Assembly (NCBI GenBank): GCA_022508405.1
Contig: JAFLVI010000001.1
Span: 1-32,229, forward strand
Source of the DNA: Clostridiales bacterium
Lineage (GTDB): Bacteria; Bacillota; Clostridia; Christensenellales; Pumilibacteraceae
Direction: 5' to 3'
Length of the DNA: 32,229 bases
Shown here: positions 6,452 through 10,411 of the stretch, piece after piece
How the letters are laid out: every line of letters starts with the position of its first letter
Numbering within the stretch: position 1 is the first letter of the stretch
The notes under the pieces: model-generated
Seen by the model: only the letters and a program-made list of their open reading frames with translations
The model's database searches: none
Told to the model about the DNA's origin: nothing
Made by a program: the position numbers and the translations under genes

Positions 6452-6501
6452 TTGTCGAAATTGTGCAGGTGCACGCTCATAATACTATAACGGTTTCGAC
6501 A
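6452..6501. promoter_or_regulatory. Two Spo0A-box matches between the divergent small gene and arsR
   Basis: TTGTCGAA (6452-6459) matches the 0A-box consensus exactly, and TTCGACA (6495-6501) is the same 7-mer inverted. Together they are an inverted pair (TGTCGAAA/TTTCGACA) with a 33-nt gap that also contains a small palindrome, GTGCAGGTGCAC (6463-6474). Assignment to Spo0A rests on the consensus only. Confidence 0.55.
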
Positions 6502-6566: not shown

Positions 6567-6911
6567 ATGAACACGTTGTTATTGGACAGTCTTACCGCCG
6601 CAAAGGTGGAAAACAGCTTGCCGTCTCGGTCGGGATTGTTGGCGCTTTCGTCATTTTTCGGCGCGCTGTCCGACGTCACGCGGCTTAAAATTCTTTCTGC
6701 GCTTACCGTGTCCAAAATGTGCGTAAACGATATTGCCGCCGTTACCGGTCTTAACCAGACCACTGTGTCCCACCAGCTGCGCATACTACGCGACGCTCGC
6801 ATAGTGGACGGCGTTCGTCAAGGCAAAGTCATTTTTTACGGTGTGGATAATACCGACATCTCAAGCATAATGAACGCCGCAGTCCGTGCCATCATGGCGT
6901 CCGAATATTAA
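6567..6911 (+). CDS. ArsR-family transcriptional regulator
   Basis: 114 aa winged-helix protein. The core ALSDVTRLKILSAL starts near residue 33, and the recognition helix is in TGLNQTTVSHQLRILRDA. The segment where arsenic sensors have ELCVCDL reads KMCVNDI here, with one Cys, and there is no alpha-5 His/Asp pattern, so a metal ligand is doubtful. Two starts are possible. ATG 6567 coincides with the predicted transcription start and has no ribosome binding site (leaderless). TTG 6618 (codon 18) has AAAGGTGG at 6602-6609 and would give 97 aa, closer to typical ArsR length. The ung gene follows 16 nt later with its own AAGGA, so the two probably share a transcript. The target is unknown. Confidence 0.88.
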   Translation: MNTLLLDSLTAAKVENSLPSRSGLLALSSFFGALSDVTRLKILSALTVSKMCVNDIAAVTGLNQTTVSHQLRILRDARIVDGVRQGKVIFYGVDNTDISSIMNAAVRAIMASEY

Positions 6912-6927
6912 CCAAGGAAAAAATTTT

Positions 6928-7644
6928 ATGATCATCACCGAAAAATGGGACGAAAAGTTATCCGCCGAATACGAAAAGCCGTATTTTAAATCGCTAATGG
7001 AAGCGGTCGACCGCGAGTACAGTAGATACACCGTGTACCCGCCGCGCGACCGCATTTATGCCGCGTTGCAGCTTGTGGACTACGACGCCGTGCGCGTTGT
7101 CATCTTGGGTCAGGATCCGTACCACGGCGCGGGTCAGGCAAACGGGCTTGCCTTTGCCGTCAATAACGGCGTGGAAATGCCGCCTTCGCTTGTAAATATC
7201 TTTACCGAGCTCAAGTCCGACCTTAACGTTCAGCCGAGTGACGACACCACGCTTGTCGGGTGGGCCAATCAGGGCGTACTGCTGCTTAACGCGTCGCTCA
7301 CCGTCCGCGCCGGCGAGGCGCAGTCCCATGCAAGCTTGGGCTGGCACCAGCTGACCGACGCGGTTATCCGCTCGCTTAACGACCGAGAAAAGCCGGTGGC
7401 ATACATTCTTTGGGGTATGAGCGCGCGCGAAAAGACTGCGCTCATTTCCGACCGCAATTTTATTGTGACTTCCGCGCACCCCAGTCCGCTTTCGGCGTAC
7501 CGCGGATTCTTTGGCTCCAAGCCGTTCTCCAAGGTGAACAGCTGGCTGGTAAATAACGGCATGCCGCCCATTCACTGGCAGATGACCGGAAGATTCCAGC
7601 CCGCCGACTACTACAAAAATTCGCATAAGATTTTCCGAGCTTAA
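6928..7644 (+). CDS. ung: Uracil-DNA glycosylase, family 1
   Basis: 238 aa. It removes uracil from DNA to start base excision repair. GQDPYHGAGQANGLAF at 61-76 carries the catalytic Asp63, and HPSPLSAYRGFFGSKPF at 184-200 is the DNA-intercalation loop with His184. The uracil-recognition strand reads VLLLNASLTVR. The track starts at 6886, but AAGGA (6914-6918) lies 9 nt before ATG 6928 and the protein aligns from there. It sits 16 nt after an ArsR-type regulator, an unusual partner for ung. A terminator at 7668-7694 follows. Confidence 0.96.
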   Translation: MIITEKWDEKLSAEYEKPYFKSLMEAVDREYSRYTVYPPRDRIYAALQLVDYDAVRVVILGQDPYHGAGQANGLAFAVNNGVEMPPSLVNIFTELKSDLNVQPSDDTTLVGWANQGVLLLNASLTVRAGEAQSHASLGWHQLTDAVIRSLNDREKPVAYILWGMSAREKTALISDRNFIVTSAHPSPLSAYRGFFGSKPFSKVNSWLVNNGMPPIHWQMTGRFQPADYYKNSHKIFRA

Positions 7645-7714: not shown

Positions 7715-7831
7715 TGTCGAAAAAGGCGAGTACTTATTAAGTTCGACAATCAGTTGTTTAATGTCGAAAATAACGGGTATTACAACAATTCGACATATGT
7801 CGAATACATATAATACTCGACGTAATCGACA
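7715..7831. promoter_or_regulatory. Array of six Spo0A-box-like half sites
   Basis: TGTCGA or its inverse occurs at 7715, 7743, 7762, 7790, 7798 and 7826. They form three inverted pairs (7715/7743, 7762/7790, 7798/7826), each TGTCGA-N22-TCGACA with a 28-bp offset. Five of the six extend to the full 7-mer TGTCGAA; the last is TGTCGAT read on the - strand. The middle is a perfect 18-bp palindrome, ATTCGACATATGTCGAAT (7788-7805). A further near match, TCGACG, is at 7817. TGTCGAA is the published core of the Spo0A box. The array ends 36 bp before the -35 of the protease promoter. Confidence 0.8.
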
Positions 7832-7867: not shown

Positions 7868-7896
7868 TTGACAATATCCTGTAATTGTGGTAAAAT
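7868..7896 (+). promoter_or_regulatory. Strong promoter giving a leaderless protease transcript
   Basis: TTGACA (7868-7873), 17-bp spacer, extended TGG, TAAAAT (7891-7896), 6-nt discriminator ACCGAT, then ATG at 7903. Predicted +1 is the A of ATG. No Shine-Dalgarno is present. Confidence 0.82.
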
Positions 7897-7902
7897 ACCG
7901 AT

Positions 7903-9327
7903 ATGGACGAACAAAAGCAAAATCCGGATTTTAATATTGAAAGCGAATCAAAAGCGCCTGCGCCCGTCGACGCCGTGCCGCCTATAAGCGACATGATGCT
8001 TCCGCGCGATCAATTACCGCTTGTCGCCGTTAAACCCGAATTGCCGGCAGAGCCCGCGCATGTAACTAGGTTGGAAGACGACGGTGCGGATGAGAGCATG
8101 CACGGCGGATATGCGTCCGTAAAAGGCACACCTGTACACAAGCGAGAGAATCGACTTGTTTGGATTGTGATTGCCGTTATGACAATCATGTGCATTGCAG
8201 TGGGCATTTGCTCGTCAGTCATCACCGCAAGGCTGGTGCAAAAGGGTATGAAGCCATGGTATGTCAAATCGGACGGGGAAGTTCAGCAGCACATTTCCGC
8301 TATTGTAACCTTGCGCAAGGACAGCATTGTGGAAGTGCAGTGCGGTACTCTTAGCGGCAGCGGAATTGCAATGAAGCGAGACGGCAAAGAAGTTACGGTT
8401 TTGACCAATGCTCACGTTATTACTCAGTATGTGGACGGAGTCTTGTCCGTAAAGCCACAAGTGCGGTTTGCAGGCTATGACGATTTCTATATTGGAGACG
8501 TCAAGGGCTATGACGAGCATTACGACGTGGCGGTGATTATAGTTACCGTCGATGACGAACTTCCTATCTACGATATAGACGGCAGCTACGTTGTGTCGCC
8601 CGACGTAACGTTTAAAGAAGGCGACTATGTTGTTTCCATAGGCAATGCCATGAGCATGGGCATTGCTTCGTACGACGGCATAATATCGCGCAAGGCCGAA
8701 CTTTTCGACTGCGACAAACTGTTTGGAAAAGGCGGAACAAAGACCGTGCCGGTATTTCGTACCACAGCCGTAATCAACGCCGGCATGAGCGGCGGCGGCG
8801 TGTTTGATATGGAAGGCAGGCTTGTGGGACTGGGCACGTACAGAATGAGCAGTTCCGTCGACTTTAACCCCGATGACCCGTCAACTCATAATCCGGCGTT
8901 CGATGTGGAAAACACAGGCTTTGCCACGCCGATATCCATTGTGTATCCGGTGTATAAGCGCATACTCGCAAGCAGCGGCGGTCAGGTGGGATTGTTTTCG
9001 GTAGAGAACAAAAAAACAAATTCCGCCATAGGACAGGTGGACTTGTCGCAGATAGGCGTAACTTGCGAATATAAAAACGGCAAGCTTGTAGTAGTCGGCG
9101 CAAACAGCGGAAGCGGAATTCAAGTAGGCGATATTATTACCAAGATTGGAAATATCGAAGTCTATAAAAAGGTATCCGGCGTAGAAGTAGTAGCGGATAT
9201 CTGCGAGGTGACGGGAGCGTTTTTAAGGTATCACCGCAGCGGATCGGGCGACGTGCTTAAATTAACCGTTTTGCGCGGCGACGTAAGCAAAACCGCCACG
9301 TTTAACGGATTCCGTTATGCGATTTAG
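7903..9327 (+). CDS. Membrane-anchored HtrA-like serine protease with PDZ domain
   Basis: 474 aa. An acidic, Pro-rich cytoplasmic segment (1-80) precedes one transmembrane helix (about 85-107); the trypsin-like domain follows outside the membrane, and a PDZ-like domain covers about 385-465 (IQVGDIITKIGNIEVY). The triad can be read as His171 (LTNAHVI), Asp208 (HYDVAVI) and Ser296 (GMSGGG, where HtrA usually has GNSGGP). Family members degrade or process misfolded or specific envelope proteins. The ATG coincides with the predicted transcription start, so the mRNA should be leaderless. The start of the next gene overlaps its stop by 11 bp, so the two are probably co-expressed. The upstream Spo0A-box array points to sporulation or stationary-phase control. 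Confidence 0.9.
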   Translation: MDEQKQNPDFNIESESKAPAPVDAVPPISDMMLPRDQLPLVAVKPELPAEPAHVTRLEDDGADESMHGGYASVKGTPVHKRENRLVWIVIAVMTIMCIAVGICSSVITARLVQKGMKPWYVKSDGEVQQHISAIVTLRKDSIVEVQCGTLSGSGIAMKRDGKEVTVLTNAHVITQYVDGVLSVKPQVRFAGYDDFYIGDVKGYDEHYDVAVIIVTVDDELPIYDIDGSYVVSPDVTFKEGDYVVSIGNAMSMGIASYDGIISRKAELFDCDKLFGKGGTKTVPVFRTTAVINAGMSGGGVFDMEGRLVGLGTYRMSSSVDFNPDDPSTHNPAFDVENTGFATPISIVYPVYKRILASSGGQVGLFSVENKKTNSAIGQVDLSQIGVTCEYKNGKLVVVGANSGSGIQVGDIITKIGNIEVYKKVSGVEVVADICEVTGAFLRYHRSGSGDVLKLTVLRGDVSKTATFNGFRYAI

Positions 9328-10411
9328 CCGAAAGCTGTTTTTGTGTTTTGCGGCGATTGTTGCTTCGGCCGTAATGCTGTGCGGCTGCGGCATGGATATT
9401 ACTTCACCCGACATACAGCCGCATATTTCCGCGGCAAAATCCGCGCATGCCGTGCCCATAGACGGGTACGAGCAATTTATAATGCCCGAGTTTTCCGGAG
9501 CGCTTTCCGCCAAGCAGTATCGCGAGCGCGTTTCGCTTTTGTACGACGCTGTGGTGTATGACGGCAAAAAACCGGTTTTTATAGACGGCGATCCCGTCAA
9601 ACCGATATACGACACTGCGCATAATTTTTTGTCGACATACATTCACGACGAATGGGACGAATCGGTGCGCGAGATAAACACCGTGCATGCAATTCACGAC
9701 TGGCTGATTTACACTACCGACTACGACTTTGCGCTTTACGATTCGTACAAGGCGGGCGGCACCGACTATGCGGATAATCCCGCCTTCAACATAGACGGCG
9801 TGCTGTTAAACGGCAAGGCGGTGTGCGACGGACTGGCGCGGGCGTTTAACTTTTTGTGCGCTATGGAAGGGCTGCAAAGCGTGCGCGTTACCGGCTCGTT
9901 TGCGTCTTCGCTTCACGCATGGAACAAGGTGAAAATAGGCGGGGAGTGGCTAAACGTGGACGTCACGTCGGACGCGGTGCATTACGCCGTAAGCGGCAAA
10001 AGTTACAAGCAGATTGCGCACGGCTTTATGCTTGTGTGCGACGATACGCTAAAAAGCTTTGCGCCCAACGGACACGACTTTGTGGATACGCCGTTTACAG
10101 CAAACGCCGATTACGATTACTTTTCGGGCGAAATAATAAAGATAGGGAACAAAACGTATTCGCGCGTGGTTAAGTCGCAATCCGAGCTTAACGCAATTTT
10201 TTCCGCCGTGTCCGCGCAAAAGGGCAAGATAGGCAAGATAGAACTCAAGCTGGAATTTTCCGGCAAAACGCAGGTGAACAGCGCCGATATGTACTCCGCC
10301 GAAATACGCAAGGCGTACGGCAAGGTGGACAACATAGGTTTCGATATATCCAACGGCTACCCGTATTTTCGCTTTCCAAACGGAGTATATCTGTTTCTTA
10401 TCTACAAATGA
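9317..10411 (+). CDS. Transglutaminase-like lipoprotein
   Basis: 364 aa. The N-terminus has a lipoprotein-type signal peptide with lipobox-like LCGC (Cys24). A transglutaminase-like fold follows, with a readable triad Cys170 (GKAVCDGLA), His200 (SLHAWNKV) and Asp215 (WLNVDVTSD). Such extracellular domains act as proteases, peptidases or cross-linkers on envelope substrates; the substrate cannot be read from sequence. A C-terminal region of about 120 aa has no family I recognise. The ATG overlaps the protease gene by 11 bp in another frame, suggesting translational coupling. The last six codons and the stop form one arm and the loop of an 18-bp perfect hairpin (10392-10430). Confidence 0.87.
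   Translation: MRFSRKLFLCFAAIVASAVMLCGCGMDITSPDIQPHISAAKSAHAVPIDGYEQFIMPEFSGALSAKQYRERVSLLYDAVVYDGKKPVFIDGDPVKPIYDTAHNFLSTYIHDEWDESVREINTVHAIHDWLIYTTDYDFALYDSYKAGGTDYADNPAFNIDGVLLNGKAVCDGLARAFNFLCAMEGLQSVRVTGSFASSLHAWNKVKIGGEWLNVDVTSDAVHYAVSGKSYKQIAHGFMLVCDDTLKSFAPNGHDFVDTPFTANADYDYFSGEIIKIGNKTYSRVVKSQSELNAIFSAVSAQKGKIGKIELKLEFSGKTQVNSADMYSAEIRKAYGKVDNIGFDISNGYPYFRFPNGVYLFLIYK

Follow-up and report, generated by a model that had tools for sequence, protein, structure and literature searches.

A conserved gene pair for an HtrA-like protease and a transglutaminase-like lipoprotein in a family of uncultured gut Clostridia

Proteases of the HtrA/DegS type are regulated by envelope signals, and the superfamily represented by PF01841 includes, besides transglutaminases, proteases and other amidases. 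In Bacillus subtilis, a transglutaminase (Tgl) and a protease (YabG) both serve spore-coat assembly (PMC6490927, PMC10681294). A protease is likewise combined with a transglutaminase-like protein at the locus described here, which lies in a window of 32,229 nt (the whole stretch of DNA analysed) from an assembly of 1.51 Mb that is 82% complete. To our knowledge, Tgl and YabG belong to families different from those of the two proteins studied here, are not extracytoplasmic lipoproteins or membrane proteins, and are not encoded in an operon. Both protein types at the locus are known, but their fixed pairing is undescribed in the papers searched, and, in line with the earlier note, which knew of no named system of this kind, the part of the literature searched contained no paper describing a pairing of such a protease with a transglutaminase-like lipoprotein.

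The upstream gene of the pair (Table 1) encodes a protein with a Trypsin_2 domain (PF13365) at residues 152-310 (E 2.8e-17). Its profile retrieved PDB chains of DegP, DegQ, DegS and HtrA with a best E of 1.9e-13, and Foldseek also returned DegS/HtrA, a supporting observation from a poor, low-confidence AlphaFold model (mean pLDDT 49.8). The predicted layout comprises a long cytoplasmic N-terminus, a single helix that would serve as the membrane anchor (about residues 84-113, nt 8152-8241), the trypsin-like domain and a weak PDZ-like C-terminal region. With its predicted tether, trypsin-like domain and weak, PDZ-like C-terminal region, the protein resembles the HtrA/Deg proteases DegS, DegQ and M. 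tuberculosis HtrA1, which give its best sequence and fold matches, and it has the His-Asp-Ser triad (His171, Asp208 and Ser296) that, together with the trypsin-like domain, is characteristic of the HtrA/Do type. The triad is kept in 34 of 35 loci, the remaining one being a truncated contig. Unlike HtrA/Deg proteins, however, the protease falls well short of the NCBIfam cut-offs (for TIGR02037, 73 bits against 416.2), has a weak PDZ region, carries the long cytoplasmic N-terminus in the genus of the window (g1), and has a fixed transglutaminase-like partner. Because the curated HtrA cut-offs were failed, the protease is labelled HtrA-like here and is not filed as a member of that family. The trypsin domain of the membrane-anchored trypsin/PDZ protease that had been proposed from the sequence is upheld and its anchor helix is predicted; the PDZ part is less secure, with PDZ_6 at 20.4 bits against a cut-off of 27, PDZ_2 matching 4 of 9 orthologues, and the HtrA family profile match extending to residue 458.

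The downstream gene encodes a protein with a Transglut_core domain (PF01841) at residues 120-215 (E 1.4e-7, 32.2 bits against a cut-off of 23), which was detected in 9/9 orthologues and holds the Cys-His-Asp triad typical of the transglutaminase-like superfamily. Cys170, His200 and Asp215 are retained at all 35 loci, and the intact triad that the earlier note had read from this one sequence is therefore a property of the whole set. A lipobox, LCGC with Cys24, marks the protein as a bacterial lipoprotein and is present in 33/35 orthologues; in the versions from genus g17, a long N-terminus followed by a membrane segment takes its place. Both proteins are predicted to face outside, as the earlier note proposed.

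The nearest solved structure to the lipoprotein, by sequence profile (E 2.9e-17) and also by fold with a moderate AlphaFold model (pLDDT 70.5), is S. pyogenes TglA (PDB 9crn). The lipoprotein shares its triad and transglutaminase/papain-like core with TglA, with TGase 4xz7 and with the weaker matches P. aeruginosa TgpA and Legionella LapG, but it aligns with these proteins over the core alone (about 100-150 residues), and its C-terminal domain gave no match in Pfam. A related core is also found in the MAG6410 family transglutaminase-related lipoprotein (NCBIfam NF045980, E 1.3e-13), though at 50 bits against a cut-off of 450 and over positions 157-286 of a 622-position model.

Table 1. Positions of the genes, catalytic codons and non-coding elements in the window.
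Feature	Position (nt)	Strand	Basis or remark
Uracil-DNA glycosylase (UDG) gene	6886-7644	+	NCBIfam NF003592, 294 bits; neighbour in most loci
Array of three 34-bp palindromes	7715-7831		Units 7715-7748, 7762-7795, 7798-7831
Predicted sigma-A type promoter, TTGACA-N17-TAAAAT, extended -10	7868-7896	+	Sequence, conserved across genera
HtrA-type membrane-anchored (predicted) serine protease, 474 aa	7903-9327	+	Pfam PF13365, PDB profile matches, Foldseek
Protease catalytic His171 codon	8413-8415	+	34/35 orthologues, the other truncated
Protease Asp208 codon	8524-8526	+	Triad member
Protease Ser296 codon	8788-8790	+	Triad member
Overlap of both reading frames, 11 bp	9317-9327	+	Coordinates
Transglutaminase-like lipoprotein, 364 aa (lipobox Cys24, Transglut_core, C-terminal domain)	9317-10411	+	PF01841, 9crn
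Lipoprotein catalytic Cys170 codon	9824-9826	+	35/35 orthologues
Lipoprotein His200 codon	9914-9916	+	Triad member
Lipoprotein Asp215 codon	9959-9961	+	Triad member

The two reading frames overlap exactly as the earlier note had it, and in nearly all relatives the genes overlap or are separated by no more than 19 bp. Among the 74 genomes of the GTDB family searched, the lipoprotein is full-length in all 20 genomes of g1 and in 13 genomes of g4, g6, g8, g9 and g16, and g17 has two divergent copies. The protease gene lies directly upstream on the same strand at every one of the 35 family loci with the lipoprotein, which come from seven genera and include the window, and adjacency therefore extends well beyond the genome in which it was noticed. 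The pair is present in 35/74 family genomes and was not found outside the family in 396 genomes of the order. In the same 396 genomes, the protease profile at E<=1e-30 retrieved 20 family genomes and a single genome from outside, in which there is no transglutaminase-like gene beside the match. Two family genomes, G030 and G062, also have the protease without such a gene next to it. Of the best 80 GTDB relatives, the remaining 72 share only the transglutaminase core, in other architectures, and no protease of this type was present in the flanking sequence of up to 4 kb available on either side.

The order ArsR-like gene, UDG, protease gene, lipoprotein gene is maintained at most loci. As the ArsR-like and UDG genes adjoin the pair in most of the same loci, part of the adjacency would be plain vertical inheritance; g17, however, keeps the pair although UDG, ArsR and acyl carrier protein neighbours were not detected there. 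In g4/g6, the next gene closely downstream of the lipoprotein gene and in the same direction encodes an acyl carrier protein (L056:4962-5177, L059:2973-3185, L064:4238-4450); in g1 the orientation of this acyl carrier protein gene is reversed. In g6/g9/g16 (L305:1569-1847, L306:1419-1772, L308:1369-1689), a gene divergent from the operon encodes a small protein that has a SpaA domain (PF17802) and no evident signal peptide. This gene was not found at the protease-lipoprotein locus in g1; its product is a possible substrate or partner of the pair. The first bases of one contig (L051:1-46) resemble sequencing-adapter sequence and are an artefact.

The -10 box of the promoter upstream of the pair ends 6 nt before the protease ATG. 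The arrangement TTGACA/TTTACA-N17/18-TGnTAnAAT, usually 6-10 nt before the start, is kept in most g1 loci and in g4, g6, g9, g16 and g17, and no Shine-Dalgarno-like sequence was found at the promoter and start in these genera. The promoter is missing in g8, where the protease gene closely follows UDG. Sigma-A promoters with a -10 box exactly 6 nt before the start were seen in the window at genes 6567, 7903 and 14287, with 0.025 such arrangements expected per strand, and at loci L309-L328; 6 nt is also the commonest distance between the -10 box and the start in a 399-kb contig of a relative. The protease mRNA is predicted to be leaderless and, given the recurrence of this spacing in the window and in the 399-kb contig, leaderless transcription looks common in the lineage.

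The best explanation of the locus, to which we assign a probability of about one half, is a vegetative, lineage-specific pair of extracytoplasmic enzymes acting on shared envelope proteins. A vertically inherited, family-specific operon would encode a tethered serine protease of the HtrA/DegS-like kind and a lipid-anchored cysteine enzyme with a transglutaminase fold, both presumed to sit on the outer side of the cytoplasmic membrane. Transcription would proceed from the sigma-A promoter, most likely starting at the protease ATG, and since this promoter is an ordinary one, the pair would be made in growing cells, with the overlap probably coupling translation of the lipoprotein gene to that of the protease gene. 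The lipoprotein may modify envelope proteins via Cys170, by amide cross-linking, deamidation or cleavage, and the protease may trim or remove misfolded or modified products from what would be the same pool of envelope proteins. The unbroken association of the two genes across seven genera, including g17 with its different surroundings, argues for this reading, as do the triads in all complete copies, the lack of such a protease near transglutaminase-domain proteins of other architecture, the near confinement of the protease to the family and the near-consensus promoter kept at the start codon across genera. The palindrome array considered below, which follows UDG rather than the protease, points the same way. 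Against it, stable vertical inheritance may account for a large share of the adjacency, two genomes have the protease with no lipoprotein gene next to it, and the structural model is poor for the protease and moderate for the lipoprotein.

A closer dependence of the two enzymes on each other, in which the protease chiefly acts on the lipoprotein and, by cleaving it, switches the transglutaminase-like activity on or off, would fit the invariant order, the overlap, the common presumed location and the control of HtrA/DegS proteases by envelope signals. We consider it unlikely; the protease persists in G030 and G062 with no lipoprotein gene adjacent, and no conserved propeptide or cleavage site was noticed. 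It is also rather improbable that the genes are neighbours only, with a stable chromosomal address and a common promoter and no joint function. The conserved order from the ArsR-like gene to the lipoprotein gene in most loci, and the protease genes that occur without the lipoprotein gene, speak for mere proximity, but g17 retains the pair where the ArsR-like and UDG neighbours were not found, and no lipoprotein locus in the family lacks the protease directly upstream. Two enzymes working on shared envelope proteins are thus preferred over both alternatives.

The DNA between UDG and the promoter had been described as an array of Spo0A boxes, with the suggestion that the pair may act during sporulation or on the envelope in stationary phase. 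The 0A core has been defined by experiment as TGTCGAA, and in C. difficile exact copies of it were predictive of binding (PMC3485338). Five exact cores do lie within 100 bp (at 7715-7804, spanning 96 bp), compared with two or fewer in any of 300 simulated windows, but they are the outer arms of strict 34-bp palindromes and not ordinary 0A boxes. Each unit reads TGTCGAA-N20-TTCGACA around a centre AnT|AnT, the right arm of the third unit being ATCGACA, and the array starts 71 bp past the UDG stop. A wider-spaced inverted pair of TGTCGAA cores was also seen at 6453-6501 of the window, in the gap before the ArsR-like gene.

About three units are found at every g1 locus with upstream sequence available, the right arm being degenerate in some. 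An exact search of the 74 family genomes placed the unit in 20 of them, almost always at the UDG/protease locus. In G019, a close relative, the array starts 70 bp past the UDG stop and ends ~600 bp ahead of the protease match. In g6/g9/g16, the gap between UDG and the convergent SpaA-domain gene contains one or a few units immediately 3' of UDG, and the protease lies beyond the SpaA-domain gene, separated from the array; one g9 genome with an inverted UDG has no unit in this gap. UDG and the protease gene almost abut in g8, where the unit is absent and the pair, Spo0A and SpoIVA are present. The array is therefore tied to gene ends, above all that of UDG, and probably is not part of the control of the operon. 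That it sits near the protease promoter in g1 is most likely a consequence of the missing SpaA-domain gene in that genus.

Several roles for the array were rejected. Its position in relatives, where it stays with the 3' end of UDG when the protease is distant or behind another gene, led us to reject a promoter operator of the pair. RNA hairpins were dismissed, as complementarity at the non-core positions of 29 units did not exceed what column composition gives and no Rfam family matched the array. The 399-kb contig had no GC-skew switch of the kind expected at an origin or terminus mark, and five of its seven profile hits were the array itself, which argues against a common dispersed repeat. 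Related single units 3' of spoIIID and hprK are exceptions to the single locus: a variant, TGTCGTAAAAGGCGAGTATTATAA-N3-TTTCG, occurs in the convergent prs/spoIIID gap of three genomes (L250:2031, L251:1503, L252:1657), and two genomes have related units in the convergent gap that follows the 3' end of an HprK-like gene (L259:1501, L260:1501). In g2, a genus without the pair, the unit is found elsewhere, and an almost perfect copy was seen upstream of a small lipoprotein gene cluster (L303:2004, L304:1997). Tentatively, the array could be a new kind of chromosomal site, consisting of about three 34-bp palindromes, TGTCGAAA-N6-AnT|AnT-N6-TTTCGACA, with a fixed address across those members of the genus that have upstream sequence and one or a few units in three sister genera, and bound by a dimeric protein that uses Spo0A-like cores for a purpose other than promoter control of the enzyme pair.

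Genes for sporulation were found in every genus of the family. Spo0A is present in 72/74 genomes and SpoIVA in 63/74, as against 35/74 for the pair, so that the presence of the pair does not track sporulation, and a sporulation-linked distribution was rejected; the sporulation role suggested earlier is not supported. Spo0A may bind the cores of the array, judging from their sequence, and a canonical Spo0A gene is present in the assembly of the window. In g1, however, the exact core is missing within 250 bp of the start in 17 of 19 spo0A upstream regions and present in the other two. As no gene exceeded the cut-off in a TIGR02859 search for sigH, that gene was unusable as a Spo0A control. The boxes are also not conserved at the promoter of the operon itself, being absent in g8 and set apart by another gene in g6/g9/g16. 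Control of the operon by Spo0A~P bound to the array is consequently the least supported reading and quite improbable, since its exact, five-fold repeated core and the available Spo0A gene are outweighed by an array that goes with UDG, by g8, which has the pair and the sporulation genes and no array, by the palindromic 34-bp spacing with its own centre, by the scarcity of the core upstream of spo0A, by a promoter that is already near consensus and by the distribution of the pair.

These results show that clusters of perfect 0A cores are insufficient for calling Spo0A control. The palindrome array, which is perhaps more novel than the enzyme pair, and the apparently common leaderless promoters are testable features of the lineage in their own right. 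For the two enzymes that would act on shared envelope proteins, the fixed pairing of an HtrA-like protease with a transglutaminase-fold protein suggests an unstudied form of envelope-protein modification or policing in uncultured gut Clostridia.
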